DNA of 64,000 bases from Desulfobacula sp. (lineage in GTDB: Bacteria > Desulfobacterota > Desulfobacteria > Desulfobacterales > Desulfobacteraceae). Below, in pieces: positions 148 to 42,012 of this stretch. Numbering within the stretch: position 1 is the first letter of the stretch; each line of letters starts with the position of its first letter. The stretch covers positions 1-64,000 of the forward strand of contig NZ_JAQYWD010000029.1 in NCBI RefSeq assembly GCF_030145145.1, given 5' to 3'. The notes below the pieces were generated by a model that worked only from the letters and a program-made list of their open reading frames with translations, was not told the DNA's origin and searched no databases. Made by a program: the position numbers and the translations under genes.

Positions 148-876
148 ATGGTAAAAGACAGAGTATTTGCAGAAAAAAAAAACAGGGTTAACCCCTTTGA
201 ATTTAACAAACAAGTGGCGGATGTCTTTGATGATATGCTGCATCGATCCGTGCCGTTCTACCGGGAAAGCTGTGACCGGCAATCACAGCTGACAGCCCAG
301 TATTACCAGGCGGGCAGTCGCATTTATGATCTGGGCTGCTCCCATGGAAATCTGGGGATATTGATCCTGGATCAATTAAAAGGTCGTCCCTTCTCCATGG
401 TGGCGGTGGACAGTTCCAGACCCATGATTGAAAAGTATAAACTTCGGCTGGAAAAACAGGATACGGCTCATAACATTGATCTGGTCTGCGGGTATTTAGA
501 AAATATTCACATTAAAAATGCCTCAGTGGTGCTGATCAACTTGACCTTGCAATTCCTTGACACGGCCAAGCGTGATGATCTTATTAAAAAAATTTATCAG
601 GGCATGAATCCCAACGGTATTCTTCTTTTAACGGAAAAAATTGTTCATGCATCAACAGAACTGGATGATCTTCAAACCCAGTTTTACAAGAGATTTAAAC
701 TTGAAAACGGATATTCCGAACTTGAGATCAGCCAAAAAAGGGATGCCCTGGAAAAGGTTCTCATCCCGGATACCCTTGAAATTCATGAAAATAGGATATT
801 AAGCGCAGGGTTTACCACTATTGATATCTGGCTTAAATGGTTTAACTTTGCCTCAATGATTGCGATAAAAAAATAA
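148..876 (+). CDS. cmoA: Carboxy-S-adenosyl-L-methionine synthase CmoA
   Basis: This 242-aa protein matches the usual CmoA length (about 247 aa). CmoA makes carboxy-SAM from SAM and prephenate in the cytoplasm, for the cmo5U34 modification of tRNA wobble uridine. Visible features are the N-terminal FEFNKQVADVFDDML-RSVPFY block typical of CmoA, the SAM-binding YDLGCSHGNLG motif at about residues 60-70, and an acidic VAVDSS strand end. The next gene, 25 bp downstream on the same strand, encodes CmoB, which uses its product; that pairing supports the assignment. The ATG at 148 is preceded only by a weak purine stretch. Confidence 0.95.
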   Translation: MVKDRVFAEKKNRVNPFEFNKQVADVFDDMLHRSVPFYRESCDRQSQLTAQYYQAGSRIYDLGCSHGNLGILILDQLKGRPFSMVAVDSSRPMIEKYKLRLEKQDTAHNIDLVCGYLENIHIKNASVVLINLTLQFLDTAKRDDLIKKIYQGMNPNGILLLTEKIVHASTELDDLQTQFYKRFKLENGYSELEISQKRDALEKVLIPDTLEIHENRILSAGFTTIDIWLKWFNFASMIAIKK

Positions 877-901
877 CGCTTTCAAACTTTAGGACCGTAA
901 A

Positions 902-1873
902 ATGGAAACGCTTCTTCTTCACCGGCATCACCTGAGAATAGACCGGTATTACAACACGTTCAAGGCGCTTATAACCGAAAAAAGAGCATTCCTGGACCAT
1001 GCCAAAGGAAATTTTTTAAAATTTCAACAGATCCTGGAGACCATCCCCGACCTTGTTCCATCTGCTATCGATCTTGACAGTCCGGCCATCACCATTGGGG
1101 AGACATGGGATCTGACACCGGAGGAACACCGTTTTTTGCATGACCGGCTTCAGCAATTTTGTCCCTGGCGAAAAGGCCCGTTTCGTGTGTTTGGGATTGA
1201 GATCGATTCAGAGTGGCAATCCTGGATGAAGTGGGATAGACTTAAATCTCACATCGGCAGCCTTAAGGGACGTAAAATCCTGGATATCGGCTCCAGCAAC
1301 GGATATTACATGTTCAAAATGGCGGCAGACAATCCTTTGATGGTGTTGGGCCTGGAACCCCAAAGCACTTTTTATTTTCAATACCTTACCCTGCAAAAAT
1401 TTTTAAAGCAGGACCGGGTGTTCTGCCTGCCCATTCCCCATGACCAGCTCCCGCGAATGGACAATTATTTTGATACCGTGTTTTGCATGGGGGTGTTGTA
1501 TCATCGGAAATCACCGGTTCAAATGCTCAAGGATATTTGTGATTCCATGAGACCCGGTGGAGAACTGGTGCTGGAAAATCTCATTATGGATACAAAACAA
1601 AACATGTGTCTGTTCCCGAGAGACCGGTATGCAAAAATGCGAAATGTATTTTTTATCCCCGATCTTCTGGTCATGGAATCCTGGCTTTTGCGGGCCGGTT
1701 TCACCGACATCCGATGTGTGGATGTCACCCGGACATCCCTGGAAGAGCAACGGAAAACCCCGTGGATCCAGACGGAAAGCCTGAAAGATTTTCTGGATCC
1801 CCATGATCCGGATAAAACCGTAGAAGGCTATCCTGCACCGGTTCGGGCGATTTTTATGGCCACGGCAACATAA
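902..1873 (+). CDS. cmoB: tRNA U34 carboxymethyltransferase CmoB
   Basis: The 323-aa length equals that of E. coli CmoB. CmoB transfers the carboxymethyl group of carboxy-SAM to 5-hydroxyuridine at position 34, forming cmo5U and widening codon reading. Family motifs are present: WMKWDRLKSHIGSLKGRKILD, then the SAM-binding DIGSSNGYYMFKM (about residues 127-140), GLEPQS and the VFCMGVLYHRKSP block. It forms a two-gene operon with cmoA. Transcription probably ends in the 220-bp gap after it, which holds a small palindrome and a repeat element. Confidence 0.95.
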   Translation: METLLLHRHHLRIDRYYNTFKALITEKRAFLDHAKGNFLKFQQILETIPDLVPSAIDLDSPAITIGETWDLTPEEHRFLHDRLQQFCPWRKGPFRVFGIEIDSEWQSWMKWDRLKSHIGSLKGRKILDIGSSNGYYMFKMAADNPLMVLGLEPQSTFYFQYLTLQKFLKQDRVFCLPIPHDQLPRMDNYFDTVFCMGVLYHRKSPVQMLKDICDSMRPGGELVLENLIMDTKQNMCLFPRDRYAKMRNVFFIPDLLVMESWLLRAGFTDIRCVDVTRTSLEEQRKTPWIQTESLKDFLDPHDPDKTVEGYPAPVRAIFMATAT

Positions 1874-1915
1874 CCCTTAAAAAAATCCAAGGATTGACAA
1901 AAAATTAAATTTCTG

Positions 1916-1934
1916 CAAACTATTCTATAGTTTG
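1916..1934. promoter_or_regulatory. Small perfect palindrome upstream of the ATPase/helicase operon
   Basis: CAAACTATTCTATAGTTTG has two perfect 8-bp arms around a 3-nt centre. It lies between cmoB and the operon starting at 2096, 17 bp after a TTGACA (1894-1899). It may be an operator overlapping a promoter, or a weak hairpin ending the cmo transcript; no well-spaced -10 box is evident. Confidence 0.35.
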
Positions 1935-1947
1935 TCATTCATAACAG

Positions 1948-2061
1948 CCATGCCTTGGCAGGCACAACAAAACATGAAAGTTATGAGAGGTGAGGTATGA
2001 GTATTGAGGGAGGCATAACTTCTCACTACTCAAAACTCATAACGCACGACTTTCATATAAA
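1948..2061 (+). repeat. ~115-bp dispersed hairpin repeat, copy A
   Basis: An imperfect inverted repeat with outer arms GAAAGT-TATGAG and CTCATA-ACGCACG-ACTTTC around GAGGCATAACTTCTCACTACTC. A second copy lies in opposite orientation at 57816-57929. Both copies begin with a small GC hairpin whose stem pairs differ but are kept by compensatory changes: GCCT/AGGC here, GCCC/GGGC in the other. It sits in the leader region of the 2096-11760 operon. Confidence 0.75.
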
Positions 2062-2095
2062 ACCATATAACACCGGAAAATAAAAAGGGTACCCC

Positions 2096-2938
2096 ATGAC
2101 AGAAAATACCATTTTCCTTGAAACCATTCAAACGGATTTAAAACAGGTCGTTCAGCCCTATCAGCGAGCACTTAATGTAAAACAGAAAAAAGCGGATTTT
2201 ATCAATTTGTGCATCCGGTGTGCTGGCAGGGACGACTTCCTCCGACTGGATGAATTGCTGAAAAGCAAACTGGCCCGGGAGATCAAAGCAGATGAAGAGG
2301 TTAGCGACTGTGCGCCGATTTTTGATTCCCTGGGCCGATATGCCAATGAAAAGGTGGAACAGTACAGGATTGAACTGATCGAAGACTTGACCCGGCTGTG
2401 TGGGGAAGCAGACCTTGACATCCATATTGATTTTCCCAAGTTTACGGTTCTTAAAGGCATAACCGGTGAAATTGATTTTAGTGGCCGGTGCACGACCATC
2501 AATAAAAAAATGCTCAAATCCATTGACCCCCGGCGTATTTTAACGATGGTTTCAAAACTGAAACATCAGCTGTATGATCGACCCTATGATCCCCGGGACT
2601 TTATTGATTCCCTTTATCGGGTTTACCAGGAACTGATTGACGTCCAGTCATCCACCGTTACCCATTCTATTCCCATACAAGACTTTTATCTGGCCTATGT
2701 CATTTCTTTGCAGAGCAAAGCGTTTTTCCAGAATATGGACAAAGGCAAATTCAAGGGATACAGTCTGGATCAGTTTTCCGTTGATATATGGCGGTATTTC
2801 CAGGCGGGTATCGGTGGAACATCCTCGGGGTATGAGCTTAAACTCAGCTCCAGTCGTGGTAAATCCCTGTGGCTCCTGGACAGCCAGGGAGAGCTCCGTC
2901 AGATCACCACTATTTCTTTCCATAAACAAGAGGCATAA
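2096..2938 (+). CDS. Uncharacterised 280-aa protein, first gene of an ATPase/helicase operon
   Basis: I do not recognise this family. The protein is soluble, with no signal peptide and no membrane segment, largely helical by composition, and rich in charged residues in the N-terminal 110 residues. Recognisable blocks are TVLKGITGEIDFSG (about 120-133), SIDPRRI (about 145-151), LYDRPYDPRDFIDSLY and a C-terminal glycine/serine-rich strand region with GYELKLSSSRGKSLWLLD. The stop is followed by only 5 bp before the next ATG, so it is surely co-transcribed with the first BrxD-type ATPase. I infer an adaptor, DNA-binding or scaffold subunit for the ATPases and helicase. The start is supported by AAAGGG upstream of the ATG. 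Confidence 0.8.
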   Translation: MTENTIFLETIQTDLKQVVQPYQRALNVKQKKADFINLCIRCAGRDDFLRLDELLKSKLAREIKADEEVSDCAPIFDSLGRYANEKVEQYRIELIEDLTRLCGEADLDIHIDFPKFTVLKGITGEIDFSGRCTTINKKMLKSIDPRRILTMVSKLKHQLYDRPYDPRDFIDSLYRVYQELIDVQSSTVTHSIPIQDFYLAYVISLQSKAFFQNMDKGKFKGYSLDQFSVDIWRYFQAGIGGTSSGYELKLSSSRGKSLWLLDSQGELRQITTISFHKQEA

Positions 2939-2943
2939 GCACA

Positions 2944-4236
2944 ATGATATTTCCAGAAGACATCACCCAATTAGAACCCTTTCAGGCCCGGGCCATTATT
3001 GAACAGCTTCGCAAGGGCAGTGTGCCCATTGACTATGTTCCTTTGTTTACGGTGGGACGACAAAACTGGCTCACCTTTATTGAGGATGATCTGGAACATT
3101 ACATTGGCCAGGGAGGCTCCAAGGTTCGGTTTATCAGTGGTGATTATGGTGACGGCAAAACGCATTTTATGTCTGTGATCCGCCATTTGGCCATGAAAAA
3201 GGGGTTTGCGGTGTCGTTTGTGGTCCTCACCCGGGAAGTACCCATTCATAAATTTGAAACCGTTTACCAGACCATTGTAAGGCAGATTCAGGGTGATTTC
3301 CCCGGAACGGGTATCCGGCATCTGCTGGCGGCATGGCTGGAAAAATTGGCCCTGACACCTGTCCAAGGGCAAAAGGGTACTGCCGGCCGGCTTGCCCTGG
3401 CTGAGACGTTCAGGGATATGCAGGGCATGGATATTAATTTTGCCAATGCTTTGGGTGCCCTTATCCATAACCGGTTTGCCCCGGAGGCCCTGGAAGACAA
3501 AGAAAAACAGGAGGCAGATCATGAAGTGCTGCTGCACTGGTTTGAAGGGGGCAGGGTGACTAAACGGGAACTCAAACCGTTTCAAATCTATGAGTTCCTA
3601 AACAAAACCAACAGCAAACAGTTGATGAACTCTTTGATCCTGTTTTTACGTTACATTGGCCATCAGGGGTTAATCCTGCTCATGGATGAGATGGAAACCG
3701 TGGTGGGTCAGAGTGCTTCCATTCGTAATGCCGCCTATGAAAATGTGCGCCTGCTCATTGATAACAGCGAATCCTCTCAATATCTTCACATCTTTTTTTC
3801 CATCATTCCCGATGTGCTGATATCAGAAAAAGGATTTAAGTCCTATGATGCGTTGTGGAGCCGTATCCGTTCCATTGGAGACGCTAAAAAACTCAACTAT
3901 CGGGGCGTTCTGGTGGATATCCATCAAACCCCTCTTAAAACAGATGAACTGGTTGCCCTTGGCAGGTGTTTGCGAACCATTCACGGCCTCTCCTACCGCT
4001 GGGATACAGCGGAAATCGTCACTGATGCGCTCATGGAAAAGATATGCGCCAGCCAGCAGAGAATGGGGGTGATCAGCGAGGTCCGTCTGTTTATTAAACA
4101 ATTAATCCATATCCTTGATATGGCTGAACAGGGACATTCCCCTGAACAGATGGATATGGGACGGCAGATGGTGGAAACCCAGCGGGAAATGGAGGCTGAA
4201 AAAATTGAAAAACTGGCGCCCTCCTGGGATGATTAA
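2944..4236 (+). CDS. BrxD-type P-loop ATPase (DUF2791-like), paralog 1
   Basis: This 430-aa protein resembles the BREX ATP-binding domain family (BrxD/DUF2791) in length and layout. The N-terminal region, LEPFQARAIIEQLRKGSVP, VGRQNWL, is followed by Walker A GDYGDGKTH at residues 66-74 and Walker B LLMDEMETVV at about 244-253 (D248, E249, E251). Both motifs are intact, so ATP hydrolysis is expected. Such proteins accompany Lhr-like helicases (BrxHI) in type 2 BREX and in other poorly studied islands. Here it sits between an unknown 280-aa protein and a second ATPase; no pglX, pglZ or methylase is nearby. It probably loads or controls the giant helicase encoded downstream. Confidence 0.88.
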   Translation: MIFPEDITQLEPFQARAIIEQLRKGSVPIDYVPLFTVGRQNWLTFIEDDLEHYIGQGGSKVRFISGDYGDGKTHFMSVIRHLAMKKGFAVSFVVLTREVPIHKFETVYQTIVRQIQGDFPGTGIRHLLAAWLEKLALTPVQGQKGTAGRLALAETFRDMQGMDINFANALGALIHNRFAPEALEDKEKQEADHEVLLHWFEGGRVTKRELKPFQIYEFLNKTNSKQLMNSLILFLRYIGHQGLILLMDEMETVVGQSASIRNAAYENVRLLIDNSESSQYLHIFFSIIPDVLISEKGFKSYDALWSRIRSIGDAKKLNYRGVLVDIHQTPLKTDELVALGRCLRTIHGLSYRWDTAEIVTDALMEKICASQQRMGVISEVRLFIKQLIHILDMAEQGHSPEQMDMGRQMVETQREMEAEKIEKLAPSWDD

Positions 4237-4335
4237 CCAGAGTCCTCAGAAGTCGGATACTTAGTGCCGGTCATCATACGGCCGGGCATGATAAGACGGA
4301 ACGGGCTTGATCATCGTTTCGACCAATACCCAGGA

Positions 4336-4424
4336 GGGGTCAGGCTTGCGTTATTGACGCTTTTGCTGAATTTCTTTGTTATTACAGTCTGTTGTCAAAA
4401 GCACAATAACACAAGCCTGACCCC
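4336..4424. repeat. REP-like inverted repeat (GGGGTCAGGCTTG family), copy 1
   Basis: Arms GGGGTCAGGCTTGcGTTATTG (4336-4356) and CAATAACaCAAGCCTGACCCC (4404-4424) pair almost perfectly, with further pairing through GCTTTTG/CAAAAGC. Related copies lie at 41930-42012 and, as half elements, at 12502 and 59454. The element fills most of the 278-bp gap between the two ATPase genes. REP sequences of this type in Desulfobacterota are generally associated with RAYT transposases encoded elsewhere. Confidence 0.8.
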
Positions 4425-4514
4425 GTCGAACCATCAATATGACAAGTGGGCGAAGTTAGGACCAAGCCCGACGGAACAGACAAGATCAGGACGCATAAGA
4501 CAGGACACTTAAGA

Positions 4515-5771
4515 ATGGATGATTTGGATTTTCAGGTTTTCTTGGATTCCCTGGACAATTTTAGACTTCGCAGGGCAGTGGAGCGATTGCGGGAAGGACT
4601 TTTTGACCCTTTGGGTGTGCAATTGCTCACAACGGGTGAGACAAAGCTGAACACTGCTTTTGACAGAGGTGTTGAGGCCCTTGACCGGGAGACCCCATCC
4701 CATCTGTGTATTTGTGGTGCCTATGGGCAGGGCAAATCCCACAGCCTGAATTTTATTAAGCAGCGGGCCCTGGCCCGGAATTTTGTGGTCAGTTATGTGA
4801 ATCTTGATCCAAGACAAGTGCCGTTTCATGATTTTAAGAGCGTTTACCGGGCATTGATGGCGGCCATGGAATTTCCCCAGGCAGAGACGTCCTTTGTTCG
4901 TGTCTGGAAAACCCGTGTGGCCCAGTGGCTGGCGTTGCCGGAAAATCACCCGAAAACCTGCACAGATCTTATTCCTGAGGAGATCCCCCATCGGTTCAAG
5001 GCGATTTTAACGGCCATGGCCCAGAAAAATATGACCATTCCCGCCCAAAAAAGAACCCTGAAAAAACATGCCAGATTCAAACCCAGAGAATTTTCCTGGA
5101 TCTTGAAAAATGCCCTCATGGGGAAAAATATCCCGGCATGGCGGCTGCGGTCGATTTTTTATTATCGCCAGGTTCCTTTTTACAAAGAAAAACCTTTGGC
5201 CTGCCATGAACAAGGCCAGTACATTGCAATGGTCCGGGGGTTGGCAAACCTGTTCCAAAATATCGGGTTCAAAGGATGGCTGGTATTGTTTGATGAAGGA
5301 GAATCCATTTTACAAACCCGTATCACCTGCCGTAGCAAAAGTTATGCGGCACTCAATGAAATTTTTTATCCTGAAACAAGCCCCCGGGGATTTTATCCGG
5401 TTTTTGCCTTTACCCATGATTTTTTTACCCATCTTGCCGATGAGGACTATGACCGGGTCAGGATAAAAGCGGTGAACGGAACGGCTCCCATATCGATCCC
5501 CTATTTTAGGAAAAACTATAGCAAGGACTGGAAAAATATCCATATCCACACCCTGCAGGATCTTTCACCAACGGAATGGGAAGTGATGACCCATAAACTG
5601 ATTCAGATCCATGCCAGTGCTTACCAGTGGAAGCCCCCTGTTGAGTCGATACAACCCCGGATGAACCGGAAACTATCCGGGTTATCCGGCATTGAAGCCC
5701 GTCTGAAAATCAAATTTCTCGTGAATTTGCTGGATATTGAGCAGCAACACCAGGTTCTGGCACCGGCTTGA
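4515..5771 (+). CDS. BrxD-type P-loop ATPase (DUF2791-like), paralog 2
   Basis: From the ATG at 4515 the protein has 418 aa; an in-frame ATG at 4446 would add 23 residues lying in REP-flanking DNA and looks unlikely. Walker A is GAYGQGKSH (residues 68-76) and Walker B is LVLFDEGESIL (D260, E261, E263). The overall plan matches paralog 1: an N-terminal RRAVERLREGLFDPLG helix, the P-loop, then a YVNLDPRQVPFHDFKSVYRAL block like RREVPIHKFETVYQ in paralog 1. Outside these motifs the two diverge strongly. Thirteen bp separate its stop from the likely helicase start. Two divergent ATPases could form a hetero-oligomer. Confidence 0.85.
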   Translation: MDDLDFQVFLDSLDNFRLRRAVERLREGLFDPLGVQLLTTGETKLNTAFDRGVEALDRETPSHLCICGAYGQGKSHSLNFIKQRALARNFVVSYVNLDPRQVPFHDFKSVYRALMAAMEFPQAETSFVRVWKTRVAQWLALPENHPKTCTDLIPEEIPHRFKAILTAMAQKNMTIPAQKRTLKKHARFKPREFSWILKNALMGKNIPAWRLRSIFYYRQVPFYKEKPLACHEQGQYIAMVRGLANLFQNIGFKGWLVLFDEGESILQTRITCRSKSYAALNEIFYPETSPRGFYPVFAFTHDFFTHLADEDYDRVRIKAVNGTAPISIPYFRKNYSKDWKNIHIHTLQDLSPTEWEVMTHKLIQIHASAYQWKPPVESIQPRMNRKLSGLSGIEARLKIKFLVNLLDIEQQHQVLAPA

Positions 5772-5784
5772 TGACGTCCTTTTA

Positions 5785-8700
5785 ATGTCAGACTCACTGC
5801 TGTTACAACTGCCCAATACCTTTCGTGCCTTTTACGGTGGGTTTGCCGGTTTGCACAACGCCCAGCGATCGGCTGTTGCGCCCATCCTCCAGGGCCATGA
5901 TGTGATCCTGCAGGCGGCCACGGGTTCCGGTAAAAGCGAGGCCGTGCTGGCGCCCTGCCTGGAGCGGGTGATCCGTTCGGGCCGGGAGACGGCGGTTTTG
6001 TATATCATCCCCACCCGGGCCCTTGCCATGGACTTGAAACGGCGATTTGACGCTATTATCACAGAACGCCTGGGGCTCAATCTTGCCGTTCGAACCGGCG
6101 ATACTAAGCGTTCCGGCGGAAAGCGCCCGGATATCATGTTCACCACCCCGGAATCCCTGGATGTGATGCTTGGCAGTGCCAATGCGGACCTTAAGGCGTT
6201 TTTATTCCGGGTTAAAATTGTGATCATTGATGAGGTTCATTCCTTGATTCACCACTATCGGGGTCGACATCTGGTCTATCTTTTCAACCGCCTTGAACGG
6301 AAAAAAGGTCAGCCTCTCCAGAAAATAGCCATGTCCGCCACCATTGCCCGGGTGGCATCAGTTATTGATTTTTTTGGATTCCAGGAGAACGCACAGCCGG
6401 TCATCACAAGTGTTAAGCGAAAGATAAGGGCACGCCTGCTGCACATGAAACAAGAGGAATCCGAGATTCCAGCCTTGCTCAACGATCTGTATGATACCTG
6501 GCAGTACCGGAAAATACTGATTTTTGTCAACAGCCGGGTGGCCTGCGACAGGGTGTTCGGCATTGTCAACAGGAACGGAAGATTTCAAGGGGTTTCAGAA
6601 CTGCATTACTCCAATCTCAAGCCCCTGGAACGAAAAAGAGCTGAGAAACGGTTTCGTAAAAGATCCCATTCCCTGTGCATTGCCACCTCCACACTGGAAC
6701 TGGGCATTGATGTGGGGGATGTGGATGCCGTCCTGTTATATCAACCTCCGGGAACTGTGGCTGCTTTTCTCCAGCGCATTGGCCGGGCCAATCGTCGGGA
6801 ACAGGAGATTAATTTCTGGGGGCTTTGCTGCGGGGAGCGGTCCGGGGATCAGGTGATTAGATTTTTAGCCCTTCTTGATCTGGCCGGCAGGGGAATCATG
6901 GAATCTCCTGCCACCAGAACCTTGCCCAGTGTATTGAGTCAGCAGGTGATCTCCTGTCTGTATGAAAAAAAAAGGATCTCCCTGGCATCTGTGCAATCGC
7001 TTTTCCCGGACCGGCATGACCTTCTGCCCGCTGTTTTTGACTCCCTGGAAAACAAACACTGGCTGACACCCTCTAAACTGCGCGGCCTGTTTGGTGGGGG
7101 ATGGCAATACCGCAACCATTTGTTTGAATATAAAATCTGGGGAAATTTTCCCGAAGCAGAAGAAGCGTATATCCTGGAGGTATCAGACAAAGCCATTGCA
7201 GATATCCCTCAATCCATTGTCGCCCAGATGACGGTGGGAGACAAAGTCTTTCTTGCCGGAAGGCTGCTGCGGATTCTAAAAATTGATACAGGAGAACAAA
7301 AAAAAGTGCTGGCAAGGCCTTGTGCTGGCCGGGACGAAAAACAACTGGCCTGGATCGGTCTGGGCCCTCCTGTTTCTTTTGAAGTGGCAGAGGCCATGGG
7401 GCATATCCTTAAGACCGGTGAAATCGAAGATACCACCTGCCTCTTTTCCCGGACCCGAAAGCTGTTCCAGGACGCCATGAAACAGGGTGAAAAACGGGTG
7501 GTTCTGGAAAACGGCATTGAGGTGGTACCCGGTAAACGGGCCTTGTTTTACTATCGTACCTTCATGGGGTCCATGGGCAACCTGATGCTGGAGTGGAGTA
7601 TCCGGGAAAATTTGTTTGACGAAGAAATGGCGGTGGCATCGGATGAGATGGGGGTGGAATGCTCACACTGGATAAATTTTCAGGCGTTACCCCTTCCCGT
7701 CGATAGAGAGGGGTTTCAAGACTGGGTGAAAAGACATGTTAAAGTACTCAGATCCCTGGTTCCGTTAAACCTGTTCTGCAAAACCCTGCCAAGGAATCTT
7801 CTCATACAGGAATTGACGGATTTTTTATTTGACCATCGGGTGGCCCGCACCTTTGCCCATTATCTGGATACGTCATCCACCATTGTTGCGGGTGAAAGGG
7901 CCAATCTTGTCCTCGAGACGGCTGTTCAGGAGACGAAATATCCCTGTGCCATTGATATCATGGCCGGGGAGTCTTTGTTGGAGAGGGAACAAAACAGGAT
8001 GGGTGGCCCTGAAACGCTGCAACATTTTCTTCATACAGATGAATACCTGGGCCCCTGTTTGAATTCGAACCGGGTGGTCACCCTTACTGCCACCATGGTC
8101 AGTGATTATTTTTTCCATGCCCAGTGCCAAAGGCGGTTTTGTTTAACATTCCTGGGCCTGGAACCCCCGGTTTCAAACCCAACTACCCCAAACAACGATA
8201 TTTTAAACGAGGATATCTCAAGTGGGGATCTGCCAAGCCATGACAGGTTCAGACCCCTTTCCCGGGAACGGGGAATCCGCCATGAACAACAGATCTTTAA
8301 ACGATTAAAAGAACAGGGCGCAACCCTTATTCCCATGGAAACCACAGGCTCCCATGATTTGCGGTTTAACGCCTTTCTGGAACAGGTGAACGCTTTGATC
8401 GAAAAGCCCCCCTCCCTTGACAAGGATCGAACCGCTCCTGTTTTTCTTTCACACTGTCTGCTCAAGACGAACGACTTGTATCCGGCCAGGCTGGATTCGG
8501 ACAAGTTGAAATCGGACAGAGTGACCATGAAGGGGATTGGCGTTCCCGATCTTCTGATCTTATCCGTCAAACAGGCAAAGGGAGAAAAACGAGTCATCAT
8601 TGAAGTCGGTGATATCAAAAGCAGCCCTTCTCCCAGGTATCACCATAAATGGCAGGTGGCCTTTTCTGCATGGCTTCTGAAAAAAATAATCACATCCCAT

Positions 8701-11700
8701 GGTATATCAGCCAGGGTGGCAAAAACCGGATTTATTATCATCCATTCCTCCGGGAAAAGCATACAAAAGGATGGGTTTGATCTTACGGCATACCTGGCAG
8801 CATTTCCCATGTTGCTTAAAAATTTTCACTCTTTTTTGTCCCGCCCGGCAGCTGCTGCAGATCACAGGCTCCAGTCCCATTGTGTCTCTTGTGACTGGTT
8901 TTCATCCTGTTATCACACTGCCCTTGAATCCGAAGATATCCAATTTTTGCCCGGATTAACGCCTGGAGAATTGTTGAAATTGCGGCAAATGGGATGTGTC
9001 ACCATGGCCCAAATTCATGCCGCATTTGAAACGATATCTTCGGACAACAGGGAAGATCCCCAAGATGTGGAAACCGGCTTTAGTTTAGAACAGAAACGCC
9101 GGATTTCAGGACAATGTGCCGCTTTTTTTAAAAATCAGATTTTTCTGATAAAAAAAAAGACCCGGCTTTTCCCCCGTAATATGTCCCGGGCCTTTTTTAT
9201 CCATGTGAAAAATAACCCTTTGACTGGACAGCCCTGGGCCCTGGGATGGCAGGTGACGGCGTCAACCGGTAAACCGCTTGAATCCCATGTCTGGATAATG
9301 GAAACCGATCAAGAGCGAAAAGATGCATGGCAGGCATTTTCGGCCCGGATCTCAACGGCATGGGAACAAAGCATATGCAATGGAAAAGGCCCCCACCTGT
9401 TTCATTTCGGTTCCCGGTCCCGGCAGGATCTTCTGCAATGGGGGGAGGCGGAAGAAGGAATGTTTCCAGGGTTTTTTTGGCAGGCCCAGCCCAGCCCCTG
9501 GACCGATCTGCGACGCATGTTTATGACGCATTTTCATATGCCTGCTCCCGGCATGGTGTCTTTGTTTACCCTGGGCCATGTGTTTGGGTGTACCCTGGAC
9601 ATTGATCCCCCCCAAACCCTGTTCCACCATCATGGGGCAGACAGGTTAAATTTATCCAACCTTAAATCATGGGTCTTTGCCAGTCTCTCCATCATGGTGG
9701 AGTTATATGCAAAGGCCAGTCCTTATCTGACGAGTCAATGGGTGCAGGAATGGGACCCCTGCCTGCAAGCAATAAACCCTGATACGCACGTCAGGGCTTT
9801 GTCCTGTCTGAACTTCATCAAAGAGGAACACCGATTACAGGAAGAGGATATCTTAACCCTCCAGGAGCTGCCGCTTGAAGAAAGGATGCTGAGATTTAGG
9901 GCCATGGGGTACTTAAGGGTGGATCATACCCGTCTGGATCATGAAGGGCGATTCCTTTATCTTCTTAAAATTTCCCGAAAAACCGGTTCATCAAAATTTC
10001 GAAAAGGAGACTTTCTCAGGCTGGCACCCCATGGTATGTCAGATATTCAAACTGGTTTTCCGGTTATCCTGGTTGAATATGATATGGGGGCAGGGGATAT
10101 CGCCATTCTTTCCAGATCCGGTAAAATGCAGTTGAGTAAACATCTTTTATACTCCCTGGAAGAGGATACCAGCGATTGGAACCAGGCAAAGCTGACCCAT
10201 GCTGCCACCACCGTTTTTGCAGGAGACCCTCCCCATTTTTTGCAGCAGTTGCTGGCAGGGCAATCCCTTGAGCGGCAGGCTTGTGAGTCTCTATCCTGGC
10301 TGGAAAAATGGCTGGTTCGCCATAATACCGGGCTGAATGTTTCCCAGCAACGCGCTTTGGCCTTGCCGTTCCAATACCGGACAAGCATGATACAAGGTCC
10401 CCCCGGAACAGGGAAGACCCACCTGTTGGGCTGGATTTTAATCGCTTTGATCCTCCAGGCGTATGAAGCCAAAAGGCCCCTTCGCATTGGTGTAAGTGCC
10501 TTGACCCATCAAGCCATTGATACGGTATTAAAAAAGGTGACCAGGCTTGTGAACCAGTTTTTCCCGGGCAATTTTCCAGGCCATTGCATCAAATGGGGGC
10601 AGACACCAGCGTCTGTAAAAACAGATGACCATGGAAAGGAAGATGAAAAAAACCGCAACCCTATGACGGTAACGGTCTCAGATGATGCAACCGATGTCCG
10701 GGATCGACCCTGGTTGATCCTGGGAGCCACAGGGTATGGATTTTACTCTCTTTTTAACAGCAAAGACAAAGGATTTCCCCAGGCCTTTGACTGGATTATT
10801 TTTGATGAGGCCTCCCAGGTGCTTGTACCCCAGGCCCTGCTGAGCCTGATTTACGGCCGGGGGAATTTTTTGTTCCTGGGAGATGTCCATCAACTGCCGC
10901 CCATTGTACGGGGCAATTATGGAGAATATCCCAGACAACCGGTTGGTCCGTTTTTGAACCGATCCATTCTGGCCAATTTCCAGGACATATATCCTGAGTC
11001 ACACCAGGAGACCCTTGATATTACCTATCGCATGAACAGAGAAATTTGCGCATTCCCCGGCAGAACCTGGTATAATCGCCTGCTGCACCCGGCCCCTGTC
11101 ACTGCCCATGCCAGGCTTGTCCTGAACAGGCCCCTGGAACAGGTCGCTGAGAACCCCGGATTACTTCGGGTATATGACAAGATTCTTGATCCGTCAAAGC
11201 CGGTTGTACTGGTATTGACGGATCACCAGGGATGTTCTCAAAAATCGGATATGGAAGCTGATTTGATGGCCGCCCTGGCCCACAGGTTAATAACGTTTTA
11301 TGGGATGTCACCGGATAAAATAGCGTTGATCTCACCCCACAGGGCCCAGAACAATGCCATTATCAAAAGGCTGGGAAAACTGTCGGGAGATCAGCCGCTT
11401 CCCTGCGTGGATACGGTTGAACGGGTCCAGGGCGCAGAACGGGAGGTGATTATTTTCGGCATCACCTCTTCTGATCCGGATCATTTGCTCAGTGACTTTT
11501 TAAACAGCCCCAACCGCCTGAATGTTGCCATGACCCGGGCAAGAACCAAATTAGTTATCATGGGAAGCCCGGCATTTTTTTCTGTTATCCCGGACTCGGA
11601 AGCCATGCTGGAGAAAAATAGCTGTTTTAAGCAATTGTTGCATCATTGCCAAAAACGAAATGCTGTTTTCACCTATGGTTTGCCTGCCAGAGATCATATT

Positions 11701-11760
11701 GTGCCTGCTGGATCAACCAACTTTCAGCACTTCCGCCAAATGCCTTCGATAATTTTATAG
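5785..11760 (+). CDS. Giant Lhr-like helicase / Fe-S RecB-type nuclease / Dna2-like helicase fusion
   Basis: This 1991-aa protein carries, in order: an SF2 helicase (TGSGK 46-50, DEVH 149-152, [26 protein letters not shown] at about 330) like Lhr/BrxHI; a Cas4/RecB-like PD-(D/E)XK nuclease with D922, E940, D943-x-K945 and a four-cysteine Fe-S pattern (C781 or C786, then C1033, C1036, C1042); an RNase H-like region (about 1133-1280) of the TM0106/YprB type whose expected DxE acids are not visible; and an SF1 Dna2/Upf1-type helicase (GPPGTGKT 1538-1545, DEAS at 1674, [16 protein letters not shown] at about 1915). The ATG at 5785 fits the family N-terminus better than the ATG at 5737, which overlaps the previous gene. 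The last dozen codons come from a repeat element. Likely role: ATP-driven unwinding and cutting of DNA, probably in defence or repair. Confidence 0.9.
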
Positions 11761-11806
11761 CCATTTCCGGAGATATTCCGAAACGGCCATTTAGCAATGC
11801 TGAAAG
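11721..11806. repeat. 86-bp inverted-repeat element supplying the helicase stop codon
   Basis: Ends CTTTCAGCA (11721-11729) and TGCTGAAAG (11798-11806) are perfect 9-bp terminal inverted repeats. Similarity continues inward as AAATGcC against GGCCATTT. The element begins inside the reading frame of the giant helicase and supplies its last ~12 residues and TAG stop, so an insertion has probably replaced the original C-terminus. Confidence 0.55.
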
Positions 11807-11888
11807 AGTTTTGCGAGAGACATCAAGCCCTTCGGGGGCTCTGCTGTCGCATTTTCATATAAATCAGTTTAATGATTTTTCATTGGTC

Positions 11889-11921
11889 TGTCACCTGATC
11901 AAATAGCGTTGATCTCACCCC
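11889..11921 (+). pseudogene. 33-bp relic copy of a helicase segment
   Basis: This stretch matches 11306-11338 inside the giant helicase gene at 31 of 33 positions. In frame it would read SPDQIALISP where the intact gene has [10 protein letters not shown], a conserved SF1 helicase segment. The flanks do not continue the match. It looks like a remnant of a second helicase copy or a short ectopic duplication in the gap before the VanZ gene. Confidence 0.55.
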
Positions 11922-12005
11922 CACTGGGGCTGGGACGTCTATATCTGTAAATGAATTTCAAACAAGGTATTGGTTCTCACAGTTATTTTATGATAATAGG
12001 GTGGT

Positions 12006-12404
12006 ATGAAAGTTAAAAATTCCATCCAAAAATGGTCTCCCCTGGTGTTAATGATTCTCATCTTTGTTGAATCTTCCATTCCCATGGACGGTGGCCCAGA
12101 TAATATTGCTTTTTTAACAACCCTTGACCCTGGTATTCAAAATTTGCTGCATATCCCCTTATATGGGACTTTGGCAGTCTTATGGTTGAGATTTTTTTGT
12201 GGTTCAGGAACGCTTACACGGCAAATGGTCGTCTACAGCCTTGTGATTACCATTTGCTACGGCTGTCTTGATGAGGTCCATCAATCGTTTGTCAGAGGCC
12301 GTTATGGCGGGCTTTTGGATGTTTATCTCAATATTTTTGGTGCAGTGGCAGGAACGATTTTTTTTGGGTATTTAAAAAAAAGAAAAGCGTTGAAAAATAT
12401 TTAA
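12006..12404 (+). CDS. VanZ-like family membrane protein
   Basis: A 132-aa protein with three or four hydrophobic segments and the VanZ-family signature CLDEVHQSFVRGRYGGLLDVYLN (about 80-103), preceded by HIPLYGTLAVLW. VanZ itself confers low-level teicoplanin resistance; short homologs like this one are widespread in bacteria and their function is unknown. It stands alone on the plus strand between two helicase genes. The first hydrophobic helix is short and lacks a typical cleavage site, so it is probably an integral inner-membrane protein. Confidence 0.85.
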   Translation: MKVKNSIQKWSPLVLMILIFVESSIPMDGGPDNIAFLTTLDPGIQNLLHIPLYGTLAVLWLRFFCGSGTLTRQMVVYSLVITICYGCLDEVHQSFVRGRYGGLLDVYLNIFGAVAGTIFFGYLKKRKALKNI

Positions 12405-12501
12405 AGCAACCTTTGGTGTCCAGCTTTAATGGACCCCAAGCAAAATTTTACGGGTTATGGCCAAAAGCATGGCGCCTGATAAAAGATTCAGCCTCCAATT
12501 T

Positions 12502-12515
12502 CACAAGCCTGACCC
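12502..12515. repeat. REP half-element (CAAGCCTGACCC)
   Basis: CACAAGCCTGACCC equals one arm of the GGGGTCAGGCTTG repeats at 4336 and 41930. The partner arm was not found nearby. It lies in the short gap before the MrfA-like helicase gene. Confidence 0.5.
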
Positions 12516-12569
12516 GGTTTAGTTATCGCCATAATGAGAATTGCTGTAATTTTTAGGGAAACGTATGTT

Positions 12570-15536
12570 GTGAGTCTGAATGAGTATATTCAATCCCTTA
12601 AAAACTATAAGGGGTTTGCCGGGGATATTGTCTGTCACAGAATCATCCCGGCCAGAGAGGCACGCTATGCCTCCCAAGGGTCACACTTTCACAACAACCT
12701 GTCCCCCTTACTGAAATCCCTGGGTATCAAAAGGCTTTACCGGCATCAGAAAGCGGCCATGGAAATGATCTGCAGCGGTATTCACACGGTCATTGCCACC
12801 CCCACAGCCAGTGGCAAAACCCTGGTGTATAACCTGCCGGTCATTGATACGTTCCTTGAAGATCCAACGTCCCATGCCCTTTATCTTTTTCCATTAAAAG
12901 CCCTGGCCCGGGATCAGTTGAATACGGTACAGCAGCTGTTACGTGTGGCAGGAACAACAACACGCCATCCCCTTCAGTTAACCGCTGACGTATATGACGG
13001 GGATATTTCTGCCTACCGGAAATCCAAGATACGACACGCACCCCCCCATATTTTATTGTCAAATCCGGAAATGCTTCACCTGGCCCTCCTGGCCCACCAT
13101 CATTTGTGGGAAGATTTTTTTAAAGGCTTAAAATATATCGTCATTGATGAAGTCCATACCTATCGGGGCGTCATGGGCTCCAACATGGCATGGGTGTTCC
13201 GACGGCTGCAACGGATCTGTCACCTTTACGGGTCAAAGCCGGTGTTTGTCTTTTGTTCCGCCACCATTGCCAATCCCGCATCCCTGGCCCATCGATTAAC
13301 CGGTCTGGATGTGCAGGTCGTGGATGAATCCGGTTCCCCGGCCGGGAAAAAAGAGGTGATCCTGATGCGAGGGCTTGAAGGGGCTGCCCGGACGGCCATT
13401 GCCCTGATTCATTCTGCGGTTCACCGGAAGTTGAGAACCATTTGTTATACCCAATCCCGGAAAATTACAGAACTGATTGCCATCTGGGCCTCCCAGCAGG
13501 CAGTGGCGTATTCAGATAAAATCAGTGCGTACCGGGCCGGATTTTTACCCGAGGAAAGACGATCCATTGAAAGAAAACTGGCCACGGGAGAGCTGCTGGC
13601 GGTGGTATCCACCAGTGCCCTGGAATTGGGGATCGATATTGGGGATCTGGATATCTGTGTGTTGGTGGGATATCCCGGGACCATCATGTCGACCTGGCAG
13701 AGAGCCGGCCGGGTAGGCCGGGACGGCAAGGATTCAGCCCTGATTCTCATCGCCCATGAAGATGCGCTGGATCAATATTTTATCAATCATCCCGATGTGT
13801 TCTTCAGTATGCCACCGGAAAAAGCCATCATCAACCCCCATAATCCGGTGATCCTGAAACAGCACCTGGAATGTGCTGCAGCCGAGCTGCGCCTGGACCG
13901 GTTTGAGTCCTTTCTTGATGATACTGCCGTTCAACATGCCCTGTCAGACCTGGAATATTCCGGAAAGCTGTTGAGAAGCCGTCAGGGCGACCAATGGTAT
14001 GCTGCCCGGAAATCCCCCCACAGGGCGGTCAACCTGAGGGGCACCGGGAAAAGCCTTCCCATTTTTCTGGACAAGACAAAACAGCGCCTGGGAGAGATAG
14101 ATACCCACAGGTCCTATTTTGAAACCCATGAAGGCGCGGTGTACCTGCACAGGGGAGAAACTTATGTTATCACCCGGTTTGACCATGAAAACGGCCATAT
14201 TGAAGCCACGCGAAAAGAGGTTCATTATTTTACAAAGGCACGGTCTTCAAAGGCGACGGCCATCATTAAACCGCTTGACGCCTGCCGGGTAAACGGCACC
14301 CGTGTCGGTTTTGGTACGTTGAGAATTACCGAGCAGGTAACCGGCTATGACCGGCGGCTTGTGGCCAATCAGAAATCCATTGGTATCGTGCCACTGGATT
14401 TGCCGGAACTTAAATTTGAGACCCAGGGCCTGTGGATTGAAATTCCCGAAGATGTACAAGATACCATCGAGTCCCACCGGATGCATTTCATGGGGGGGAT
14501 CCATGCACTGGAGCATGCGGCCATTGGCATTCTGCCGCTCATGGTGATGACCGACAGGAATGATCTTGGGGGCATCTCCATCCCCTTTCATCCCCAGATC
14601 GGGAAAGCCGCCGTATTTATCTATGACGGCGTTCCCGGTGGCCTGGGATTGTCCCAACAGGCGTTTTATCAGTCCCAAACCCTCCTTGAAAGAACCCTGG
14701 AGGTCATCCGGTCATGCCGGTGTGAAACGGGCTGTCCTGCCTGCGTGCATTCGCCTAAATGTGGATCCGGAAACCGGCCCATTGATAAATCGTCGGCCTT
14801 AAAGATCCTTGAACTGATCCTTGCCCGGGATAGAAAAGAGATCCGCCAGGGGATGGCGGACCGTTTTTCCGGATACGGTAAACCAGACAATGCCCGGCCT
14901 TATGTTAATCCTGATATCAATCCTGATGTCGATGAGGATGATCATCCCCCATCCATGTCTCACCCCTATGCGAATGCTGCTTCACCCCTGTCCTGTAACC
15001 AAGACCTGCGCTACGGGGTCCTTGATATTGAAACCCGGCGATCGGCCCAGGAAGTGGGTGGATGGAACAGGGCGGAAAAAATGGGGGTCAGTTGTGCCAT
15101 CCTTTATGATTCGAAAATTGACGGGTATAAAGAATACCTGCAGGATGATATTGAATTGCTGTGTGCGGATCTTCAAACATTAGACCTGGTCATCGGCTTT
15201 AACATCGTCCAATTTGATTATAAAGTGCTGTCCGGTCTGTCAAACTTTGATTTTTTTTCATTGCCCACACTGGACATCCTGCTAGCGGTTCATGAAAGGT
15301 TAGGGTATCGGCTTTCCCTTGACCATCTGGCAGAGCAGACCCTTGGGTCCCGTAAAACAGCCGATGGCCTGATGGCGCTTAAATGGTGGCAGCAGGGCAA
15401 AATTGATAAGATCATCGCCTATTGCAAGCAGGATGTAGCGGTTACCAGAGATTTATACCGGTATGGAAAAGATCATCAATTTATCGTGTTTAGAAACAAG
15501 GCGGGTCATCAAGTCAGAATCCCGGTCAAGTGGTGA
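12570..15536 (+). CDS. MrfA/Hrq1-like DEAD-box helicase fused to a DnaQ-like exonuclease
   Basis: From the GTG at 12570, which has AGGGAA at a good distance, the protein is 988 aa; an ATG at 12534 adds 12 residues without a ribosome site. The SF2 core shows ATPTASGKT, DEVHTYRG, CSATIAN, ALELGIDIGDLD and QRAGRVGR. It is followed by the C-terminal four-cysteine zinc cluster CETGCPACVHSPKC of MrfA/DUF1998 helicases. The last ~180 residues form an RNase H-fold 3'-5' exonuclease with LDIET (Exo I), NIVQFDYK (Exo II) and YCKQDVAVT (Exo III), all catalytic acids kept. MrfA proteins act in excision-type DNA repair; the fusion suggests unwinding coupled to strand trimming. It lies close to the other giant helicase but no operon link is visible. 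Confidence 0.88.
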   Translation: MSLNEYIQSLKNYKGFAGDIVCHRIIPAREARYASQGSHFHNNLSPLLKSLGIKRLYRHQKAAMEMICSGIHTVIATPTASGKTLVYNLPVIDTFLEDPTSHALYLFPLKALARDQLNTVQQLLRVAGTTTRHPLQLTADVYDGDISAYRKSKIRHAPPHILLSNPEMLHLALLAHHHLWEDFFKGLKYIVIDEVHTYRGVMGSNMAWVFRRLQRICHLYGSKPVFVFCSATIANPASLAHRLTGLDVQVVDESGSPAGKKEVILMRGLEGAARTAIALIHSAVHRKLRTICYTQSRKITELIAIWASQQAVAYSDKISAYRAGFLPEERRSIERKLATGELLAVVSTSALELGIDIGDLDICVLVGYPGTIMSTWQRAGRVGRDGKDSALILIAHEDALDQYFINHPDVFFSMPPEKAIINPHNPVILKQHLECAAAELRLDRFESFLDDTAVQHALSDLEYSGKLLRSRQGDQWYAARKSPHRAVNLRGTGKSLPIFLDKTKQRLGEIDTHRSYFETHEGAVYLHRGETYVITRFDHENGHIEATRKEVHYFTKARSSKATAIIKPLDACRVNGTRVGFGTLRITEQVTGYDRRLVANQKSIGIVPLDLPELKFETQGLWIEIPEDVQDTIESHRMHFMGGIHALEHAAIGILPLMVMTDRNDLGGISIPFHPQIGKAAVFIYDGVPGGLGLSQQAFYQSQTLLERTLEVIRSCRCETGCPACVHSPKCGSGNRPIDKSSALKILELILARDRKEIRQGMADRFSGYGKPDNARPYVNPDINPDVDEDDHPPSMSHPYANAASPLSCNQDLRYGVLDIETRRSAQEVGGWNRAEKMGVSCAILYDSKIDGYKEYLQDDIELLCADLQTLDLVIGFNIVQFDYKVLSGLSNFDFFSLPTLDILLAVHERLGYRLSLDHLAEQTLGSRKTADGLMALKWWQQGKIDKIIAYCKQDVAVTRDLYRYGKDHQFIVFRNKAGHQVRIPVKW

Positions 15537-15541
15537 GACCG

Positions 15542-16294
15542 TTAATGCATGACCTGTGCCACAATTTTTTCCAGGACGTCGCCTGCCTTTCCCCTGATCA
15601 GCACATCACATACCGTATCATAGGGGGTTTTGGAGAGGTTAATGATGACCAGAAAGGCACCGGCGGTTTTGGCATATTCAGGCATCATCGCGGCGGGCTG
15701 TACCAGAAGGGTGGAGCCCACGACCATGAAAACATCACTCTTTGATGCCAGCAGGGATGCTCTCTGGGTTTCTTCCACCGGCATGGCCTGGCCAAACGAA
15801 ATGGTGTCCGGTTTAAAGTATCCGGAGCAGGAACATTCCGGGGCCCTGTGTCCTGCATCTATCATTTCCTGTGCCGCCTGCCAGGATATCAATCGGTTGC
15901 ACCGCATACACCTGACCCGCCGGGTATTGCCGTGAAGTTCGATGATTTTTTCCCCGGGGATTCCCGAGGCCTCATGCAATCCATCAATATTCTGGGTGAT
16001 AAGGGCCTCCAGCAGCCCAAGGTCATGTAACGCTGCGATGCTCATATGACCGACATTGGGCGTGGCTTTGGACAGGCTTTTTTCCATTTCCAGCCGCTGA
16101 TCCCAATACCTGATCCGTGCGTCTTTTGAAGACATGAATTCATCAAAGTAAACCGGTTTGAATTTGTCCCATATGCCGCCCTGACTCCGGTAATCAGGGA
16201 TGCCGCTTTCCGTGGAAATACCGGCGCCGGTAAAGACAACCAGCCGTTTTGATGTTTTGATTTTTCGGGCCACTAGAGCGATGGTTTCATCCAT
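15542..16294 (-). CDS. NAD-dependent protein deacylase, Sir2 family
   Basis: A 250-aa sirtuin. It shows FTGAGISTESGIPDYR (GAGIS at 23-27), the QNID motif at 101-104, the catalytic H121 in HGN, and a zinc site C129-x2-C132 with C154-x-C156. The family removes acetyl and other acyl groups from lysine using NAD. The gene starts inside the last codons of murJ, with a 22-bp overlap, so the two are translationally coupled. One plausible substrate class is the acyl-CoA synthetases encoded in this window, which are classic lysine-acetylation targets, but this is inference. It converges with the helicase gene ending 5 bp away. Confidence 0.93.
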   Translation of the reverse strand: MDETIALVARKIKTSKRLVVFTGAGISTESGIPDYRSQGGIWDKFKPVYFDEFMSSKDARIRYWDQRLEMEKSLSKATPNVGHMSIAALHDLGLLEALITQNIDGLHEASGIPGEKIIELHGNTRRVRCMRCNRLISWQAAQEMIDAGHRAPECSCSGYFKPDTISFGQAMPVEETQRASLLASKSDVFMVVGSTLLVQPAAMMPEYAKTAGAFLVIINLSKTPYDTVCDVLIRGKAGDVLEKIVAQVMH

Positions 16295-41929: not shown

Positions 41930-42012
41930 GGGGTCAGGCTTTCTTTATGGCACTTTTTACCCGTCTGGTCATAAAATAGTGATAAAAAGTACCATAAAGA
42001 AAGCCTGACCCC
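41930..42012. repeat. REP-like inverted repeat (GGGGTCAGGCTT family), copy 2
   Basis: Thirty-base arms (41930-41959 and 41983-42012) pair at 29 of 30 positions around a 23-nt loop. The outer 12 bases, GGGGTCAGGCTT, are shared with the copy at 4336, while the inner stem differs. The right flank, ATTAAAGCtaAAGGTCGAAAG, resembles the flank of the half copy at 59454. It lies between the NamZ-like gene and hisC. Confidence 0.85.

Follow-up and report, generated by a model that had tools for sequence, protein, structure and literature searches.

We describe a four-gene operon in a 64,000-nucleotide stretch of DNA from Desulfobacula sp. (NCBI RefSeq assembly GCF_030145145.1, contig NZ_JAQYWD010000029.1, positions 1 to 64,000 of the forward strand; hereafter the window), which codes for a protein without a named family (P1), two different ATPases (A1 and A2) and a giant protein (G) combining two helicases with a nuclease. 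P1, A1, A2 and G constitute one operon on the + strand and a real unit:

P1, 2096-2938, + strand: 280 amino acids (aa); unnamed family, with a predicted helical hairpin, alpha/beta middle and winged-helix-like C-terminus.
A1, 2944-4236, + strand: 430 aa; first BrxD/SngB-type AAA+ ATPase, Walker A GDYGDGKTHF.
A2, 4515-5771, + strand: 418 aa from ATG 4515; second BrxD-type ATPase, Walker A GAYGQGKSHS.
G, 5785-11760, + strand: 1991 aa from ATG 5785; superfamily 2 (SF2) Lhr/BrxHI/SngC-like helicase, RecB-family nuclease, RNase H-like part and superfamily 1 (SF1) Dna2-like helicase.

The open reading frame (ORF) of A2 opens at GTG 4446 and that of G at TTG 5737 (a 2007-aa ORF). ATG 4515 and ATG 5785 are the likelier starts, the former because the alignment of relatives starts there and the latter because in most relatives the alignment with the longer ORF sets in only near residue 14-28. 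The original prediction, made from the letters of the sequence, had placed the four genes in tight order on one strand; the strand was right and only 5 bp part P1 from A1, but A1 and A2 are separated by 278 bp holding a palindrome of the repetitive extragenic (REP-like) kind at 4336-4424. Among relatives, median gaps are 8 bp at the P1-A1 junction (n=54), 14.5 bp at A1-A2 (n=54) and -19 bp at A2-G (n=43).

P1 was without a match in PADLOC and NCBIfam and stayed below cut-off for every Pfam family, in line with the prediction that this 280-aa protein lacks a recognised family. An earlier structural model was poor (predicted template modelling score, pTM, 0.49); a broader alignment of 41 rows raised the pTM to 0.78, with a predicted local distance difference test (pLDDT) score of 92.4. 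Distant relatives occupy 13 alignment rows, at 16-22% identity to the window protein. The predicted fold starts with a long N-terminal helical hairpin, continues through a small alpha/beta part and ends in a winged-helix-like C-terminus (residues ~164-279), for which many VIA-align rows were winged helices of ORC1, Cdt1 or CST, a weak likeness at Z ~4.5-6, below the safe-match level of the tool and with no Z>=8. Foldseek searches of PDB and viral libraries gave no match to P1 at E<=0.001. TerB is absent among the VIA-align rows listed for P1, which excludes nothing. P1 represents an unnamed protein family, to which the model gives a winged-helix-like end.

Both ATPases match the Pfam family BrxC_BrxD (PF10923; 9.5e-58 for A1, 1.5e-27 for A2), of which they are the only members in the whole window genome. 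A1 matched the PADLOC models of BrxD (2.4e-44) and SngB (2.3e-34), and neither protein reached the cut-off of 350 bits of the BrxD equivalog NF033438 (146.8 bits for A1, 81.5 bits for A2). Walker A and B motifs are conserved in 90% or more of relatives (57 sequences for A1, 50 for A2) and are intact in both window proteins, as in AAA+ loaders of the ORC/Cdc6 kind. The earlier call of two different intact P-loop ATPases of the BrxD type is thereby confirmed.

The third kind of protein, G, had been read as a ~1990-aa fusion of an Lhr-like helicase, a four-Cys nuclease and a Dna2-like helicase, and Pfam, motifs and a DNA2 match agree with this reading of its domains. In the numbering of the 2007-aa ORF, these lie approximately at 20-710 (SF2), 780-1130 (nuclease), 1130-1400 (RNase H-like) and 1500-1980 (SF1). 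The Pfam matches were DEAD (4e-33), Helicase_C (8.7e-17), AAA_11 (1.5e-18) and AAA_12 (7.1e-30). By PADLOC profile scores, residues 35-707 match BrxHI (1.5e-89) and residues 35-630 match SngC (2e-68); residues 931-1237 match TIGR03491 of NCBIfam (the TM0106 RecB-like nuclease) at 1.4e-13, below cut-off, and residues 1531-1953 match DNA2 5eax at 1.2e-20. The motifs conserved in 90% or more of relatives are TGSGK, DE.H, AT and QRIGR of the SF2 motor (35 sequences), G.PDL, GDIK, QVAFy, QC.R and the four-Cys C..C..F..CY of the nuclease (36 sequences), and GPPGTGKT and FDEASQ of the SF1 motor (31 sequences); in QVAFy the window nuclease has Ser in place of the Tyr of most relatives. The RNase H-like stretch had been called degenerate. 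Indeed, no catalytic acidic set is evident in it among the aligned relatives, a result that falls short of proving degeneracy. Judged from its sequence, G appears to place two motors around one nuclease, with partial matches only in the defence library used.

The C-terminal half of G resembles Dna2, TM0106 and, by description, Bad in the order of its parts: a four-Cys RecB-family nuclease comes first, then a middle domain, then an SF1 helicase. Bad is a bacterial Dna2-like enzyme in which an iron-sulfur (Fe-S) nuclease and a middle domain accompany an SF1B motor moving 5'-3' (PMC7430649). G has the nuclease motifs and the four Cys followed by the SF1 helicase, but in contrast to these enzymes it is fused behind an Lhr-like SF2 helicase (~1990 aa in all) and tied to P1-A1-A2, and its match to TIGR03491 stays below cut-off.

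A P1 search of GTDB genomes identified 49 loci, overlapping the genomes of a separate survey of 145 relatives (G and L numbers below denote genomes and loci). They are spread over several families of Desulfobacterota, with five loci in Latescibacterota, one each in Gemmatimonadota and SAR324, and a few in other groups, and their hosts include Desulfobacter latus, D. vibrioformis and Desulfamplus magnetovallimortis. Counting parts within the same locus and strand, with gene order read separately from locus alignments, P1 loci with enough contig held A1 in 46/46 cases, A1 and A2 in 40/41, the Lhr part as well in 28/33 and a complete G to the SF1 helicase in 22/26. The expectation that the same four-gene order would recur elsewhere was thus borne out, and chance adjacency of the four genes is ruled out by the repeated order and these counts (46/46 and 40/41). 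Variants occur: G precedes P1 in L109, and it forms two ORFs, split between the nuclease and the RNase H-like part, in L137 and L138 (G508 and G433), translations with an internal stop having been omitted from the profiles behind the latter result. Eight loci lack G beside P1-A1-A2 (L078, L079, L081, L087, L088, L094, L105, L106); L088 is also without A2 at the locus, and the contig ends within ~0.8 kb of A2 in L094, L105 and L106. G is found elsewhere in seven of these eight genomes, none having been found in that of L094; in the genome of L087 it is broken into three ORFs ~8 kb downstream of the locus, on the contig that carries it.

Co-occurrence leads to the same picture. Among the 145 relatives, 28 had a strong P1 and 27 of these had G, the remaining one being G117, whose 3.3-kb contig breaks off in A1. 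A P1 match was missing from four genomes that had G, two of which (G057, G141) have contig ends still showing A1-A2-G in order and two (G008, G073) decayed remnants. In G061, two P1 fragments came from contigs 99.98% identical to each other and represent a single locus, and G106 has distant relatives of both P1 and G; the Fisher value of 5e-24 scores both genomes as lacking both genes, despite the distant relatives in G106, and ignores kinship. Similarly, G was present in 8/8 strong-P1 genomes among 395 genomes of the phylum, in which the other G matches comprised one contig-edge A1-A2-G locus (G396), one fragmentary G (G437) and a pair of Lhr-only loci (G322, G361). These data bear on the view that the four genes have separate functions and share a promoter without forming a joint machine. 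Such a view could draw on the putative nature of the joint complex, on the genomes in which G is distant from P1-A1-A2 and on ATPase pairs with neither P1 nor a helicase nearby; against it stand an order kept across several phyla and a co-occurrence that persists when the genes are not adjacent, and we consider it the least probable of the explanations weighed here.

The operon is unnamed in the family libraries and in the open-licence PubMed Central (PMC) literature that were searched, in line with its prediction as undescribed. Its parts are of known kinds, and its arrangement would be a variant of the BrxD-ATPase/helicase kind. By the SngB and SngC models, the closest named system is Shango, a three-gene system of TerB, ATPase and helicase that inhibits phage (PMC10250203); like Shango, the operon has an ATPase matching the SngB model beside an Lhr-like SF2 helicase that matches SngC by profile score. 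Unlike Shango, the operon has two ATPases, the new P1 and a helicase fused to a nuclease and an SF1 motor, and its flanks are poor in defence genes. The likeness to type 2 of the bacteriophage exclusion system (BREX) consists of a BrxD-type ATPase beside a BrxHI-type helicase. BrxD itself has been assigned to the ORC-Cdc6 AAA+ group and suggested to load or activate BrxHI (PMC12839542, 2026).

Were the operon a divergent form of Shango (SngABC) or the remnant of a BREX-2 system, the matches of A1 to SngB and BrxD and of the G N-terminus to SngC and BrxHI would be accounted for. However, the PADLOC SngA model has no match in the window genome, and P1 was rejected as a SngA/TerB protein, hhalign of 24 P1 rows against 8 SngA rows giving a probability of 0.1. 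A1 scores BrxD above SngB, and in a tree of 59 chosen sequences, for which the tool warned of long branches and deep joins are tentative, A1, A2, SngB and BrxD each formed one group (100/100); SngB and BrxD were sisters (97/93), and A1 and A2 fell outside both clades, set apart from 8 SngB and 3 BREX-2 BrxD sequences. The absence of brxC, pglX and pglZ had been predicted and held: PF10923 found no BrxC in the window genome, and PglX, PglZ and PglW were unmatched among the 10 proteins of 148-17859 (PADLOC, Pfam and NCBIfam, at the locus only), so that a BREX remnant was rejected. Furthermore, the SngC and BrxHI proteins of fetched loci have only ~675-755 aa. Altogether, that the operon is simply one or the other of these seems very improbable.

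A search with the BrxD model and the P1 profile reached a wider set of loci, in which partners of P1 and the twin ATPases are exchanged. In type II loci, a distant P1 and two BrxD-type ATPases accompany a lone Lhr/BrxHI-like helicase (L053, L125, L193, L194, L195); upstream of the type II locus of L053, a 1160-aa protein (11303-14785) has weak DNA-methylase similarity. Type III loci, apparently an unnamed system of their own, hold a P1-like protein, two ATPases, a conserved unknown protein of 185-188 aa and a SNF2-Mrr protein (L199, L200, L202; split in L127). The SNF2-Mrr protein of L200 matched Pfam SNF2 (7.2e-45) and Mrr_cat (5.5e-25) and PADLOC ZorD1 (6.5e-70), a likeness to Zorya type I confined to this branch and not extending to the window's system; it differs from Zorya in scoring far below the ZorD equivalog cut-off. 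L197 and L201 have the P1-like protein and both ATPases with no such helicase partner adjacent, and L196 reaches a contig edge after three ATPase ORFs. Two further P1-like ORFs (L126 4653-5516, L128 6911-7747) each follow a conserved 187-188-aa protein, with no ATPases nearby.

In the ATPase tree, one side of a branch with support 96/97 holds A2 together with the second ATPases of the type III and pair loci and two of the four from type II. L053 and L125 show a separate duplication. A tentative reading is that the mixed ATPase pair is old, older than the change of partner. The P1/twin-ATPase module is broader than the G fusion and looks like a loader with exchangeable partners. The original prediction of a four-gene system was correct as to a conserved unit, but the P1/twin-ATPase core is not tied to the fusion, and the kinship with Shango had been missed.

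RecBCD combines two motors with a RecB-family nuclease, and Lhr-type helicases move 3'-5'. Under the mechanism that we propose, P1, A1 and A2 would form a loader, in which two different ORC/Cdc6-like AAA+ ATPases assemble into a mixed ring or clamp and P1 supplies a winged-helix arm binding DNA or protein. This loader would recognise invading or aberrant DNA by some feature of it and place G there. In G, the Lhr-like SF2 motor (expected 3'-5') and the Dna2/Bad-like SF1B motor (expected 5'-3') would flank a RecB-family nuclease that is expected to hold an Fe-S cluster, their polarity being opposite because Bad moves 5'-3' and Lhr 3'-5'. Unwinding and degrading DNA, G would act roughly as RecBCD does, in one chain, and degradation of DNA by the operon is likely. 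The likeness to RecBCD and AddAB, namely two motors of expected opposite polarity and a RecB-family nuclease (with an Fe-S nuclease in AddB too), is by analogy only, and the operon differs from them in joining one SF2 and one SF1 motor in a single chain with an AAA+ partner pair. The idea of a loader with a helicase-nuclease, put forward originally, fits the proposal that BrxD loads BrxHI (PMC12839542); loading by A1 and A2 is a step that we infer.

The distribution of the operon bears on the possible role of such a machine. Its flanks in the window are as follows:

cmoB, 902-1873: upstream flank of the four-gene operon.
vanZ/DECH-helicase pair, 12006-15536: downstream flank.

P1 was found in 5/26 genomes of the genus and in 9/19 of the sister genus. 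In G024 and G019 the system adjoins cmoAB, like in the window. At the same cmoB site of the one-contig genome G008 (L142), P1 is lost, A1 is N-terminally shortened and G is in pieces, with no detectable nuclease in them. Among the cmoB regions of 15 other genomes, five are without the system (G001, G003, G005, G013, G022) and have cmoB and the DECH helicase ~1-3.8 kb apart, the DECH helicase of the remaining regions lying outside the stretch fetched; G005 has its own copy of the system at another site. The operon is accessory, patchy and decaying.

Kinship with Shango, BREX-2 and ZorD, together with this patchiness and decay, points to defence. Several results weigh against a loader that clears foreign DNA. 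The original prediction had named enrichment in defence islands as a check, and such enrichment was not observed: at E<=1e-15, and as plain counts of families rather than members that generic methylase and helicase models inflate, 114 neighbours of the operon gave 60 PADLOC families, 43 proteins flanking true Shango 133 and 39 at neutral cmoB sites 17, both controls coming from other loci. All but 3 of the families at the operon flanks, which include cas1, SspH and a type II methylase, occur in one member each; Shango flanks include type I methylases, HerA, Lamassu and AbiE, and 14 of the 17 families at cmoB sites derive from the single DECH helicase kept. These sets represent 114 of 158 proteins for the operon (near-duplicates, some small ORFs and P1/ATPase rows omitted, a few type II-locus proteins kept), 43 of 44 for Shango and 39 of 47 for cmoB (four extra DECH copies and four L146 rows dropped). 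The neighbourhood of the operon resembles the neutral control and is unlike that of Shango. None of the 72,556 plasmid records, 50,697 phage records or viral contigs searched contained a match to P1, in searches that find close relatives only. Carriage of A2 on plasmids was not found, and A1 had only distant plasmid relatives (683 records, all below 60% identity), which among the matches listed were annotated as BrxD or lay beside TerB or helicase genes. The P1 and A1 tree mostly tracks taxonomy; in it, Latescibacterota, Gemmatimonadota and SAR324 form one nested group (support 91). As to the mechanism, the winged-helix match of P1 is weak by the VIA-align and Foldseek values given above. L107 and L110 retain only the Lhr part of G, the nuclease-SF1 half being either lost or reduced to a remnant. 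Twin ATPases occur without an adjoining helicase in L188-L192 and L197; no P1 or Lhr match lies near the pairs of L188-L192, three of these five having housekeeping neighbours (CysS, SelA, RsmB, a symporter). Finally, the mutual binding of the four proteins is something that we infer, and no marker distinguishing self from non-self is known.

The neutral neighbourhood, the mostly vertical tree and the failure to find carriage by mobile elements would also suit an accessory DNA-repair or fork-processing machine, acting like RecBCD, AddAB or Dna2 on broken or stalled DNA of the cell itself. The C-terminal half of G is related to Dna2 and AddAB, which are implicated in resection, and the window genome lacks a RecB near the TIGR00609 cut-off (best 81.5 bits), which 16/26 genus genomes pass. 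The weak RecB may reflect loss of RecBCD or an assembly gap, and we did not use it as firm support for substitution because G005 and G024 hold both RecB and the system, a coexistence that itself speaks against repair. Moreover, repair cores are not usually patchy or decaying, the module pairs elsewhere with a ZorD-like SNF2-Mrr protein, and the nearest named relatives are anti-phage. Genome maintenance is a serious possibility, at roughly one chance in three. From this mixed evidence on defence and neighbourhood, we therefore place first, as the most likely role but at somewhat less than even chances, a loader that puts G on DNA for the clearance of foreign DNA, whether phage, plasmid or conjugative.

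A bolder generalisation, which we regard as doubtful, is that P1 and the paired ATPases represent an undescribed loader of ORC/Cdc6/Cdt1-like type, with Lhr, Lhr-nuclease-Dna2 or SNF2-Mrr as partners, which in the operon drives a single-chain, two-motor DNA degrader and belongs to a new DNA-interrogating class without a modification enzyme. If true, a single loader core would have been combined with three or more kinds of DNA motor or nuclease, and the role of BrxD-type ATPases in BREX-2 and Shango would have a testable answer. The operon would add a two-motor helicase-nuclease-helicase chain, with the unnamed P1 family as a candidate targeting part, and its presence in named sulfate reducers of cultured type allows study in their own hosts.

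Two neighbouring features deserve mention. The DECH/MrfA-like helicase of the downstream flank (12534-15536) has a C-terminal RNase_H_2 domain, adjoins sirtuin and murJ genes, and is located near cmoAB in several members of the genus. The other feature lies between A1 and A2:

REP-like palindrome, 4336-4424, no strand assigned: genome-wide repeat, outside the system.

It begins GGGGTCAGGCTTG. A reversed control of its half-site had 0 genome matches, and the half-site itself had 64, 32 per strand (<=2 mismatches); further short palindrome matches are located at window positions 41930, 42003 and 59454.

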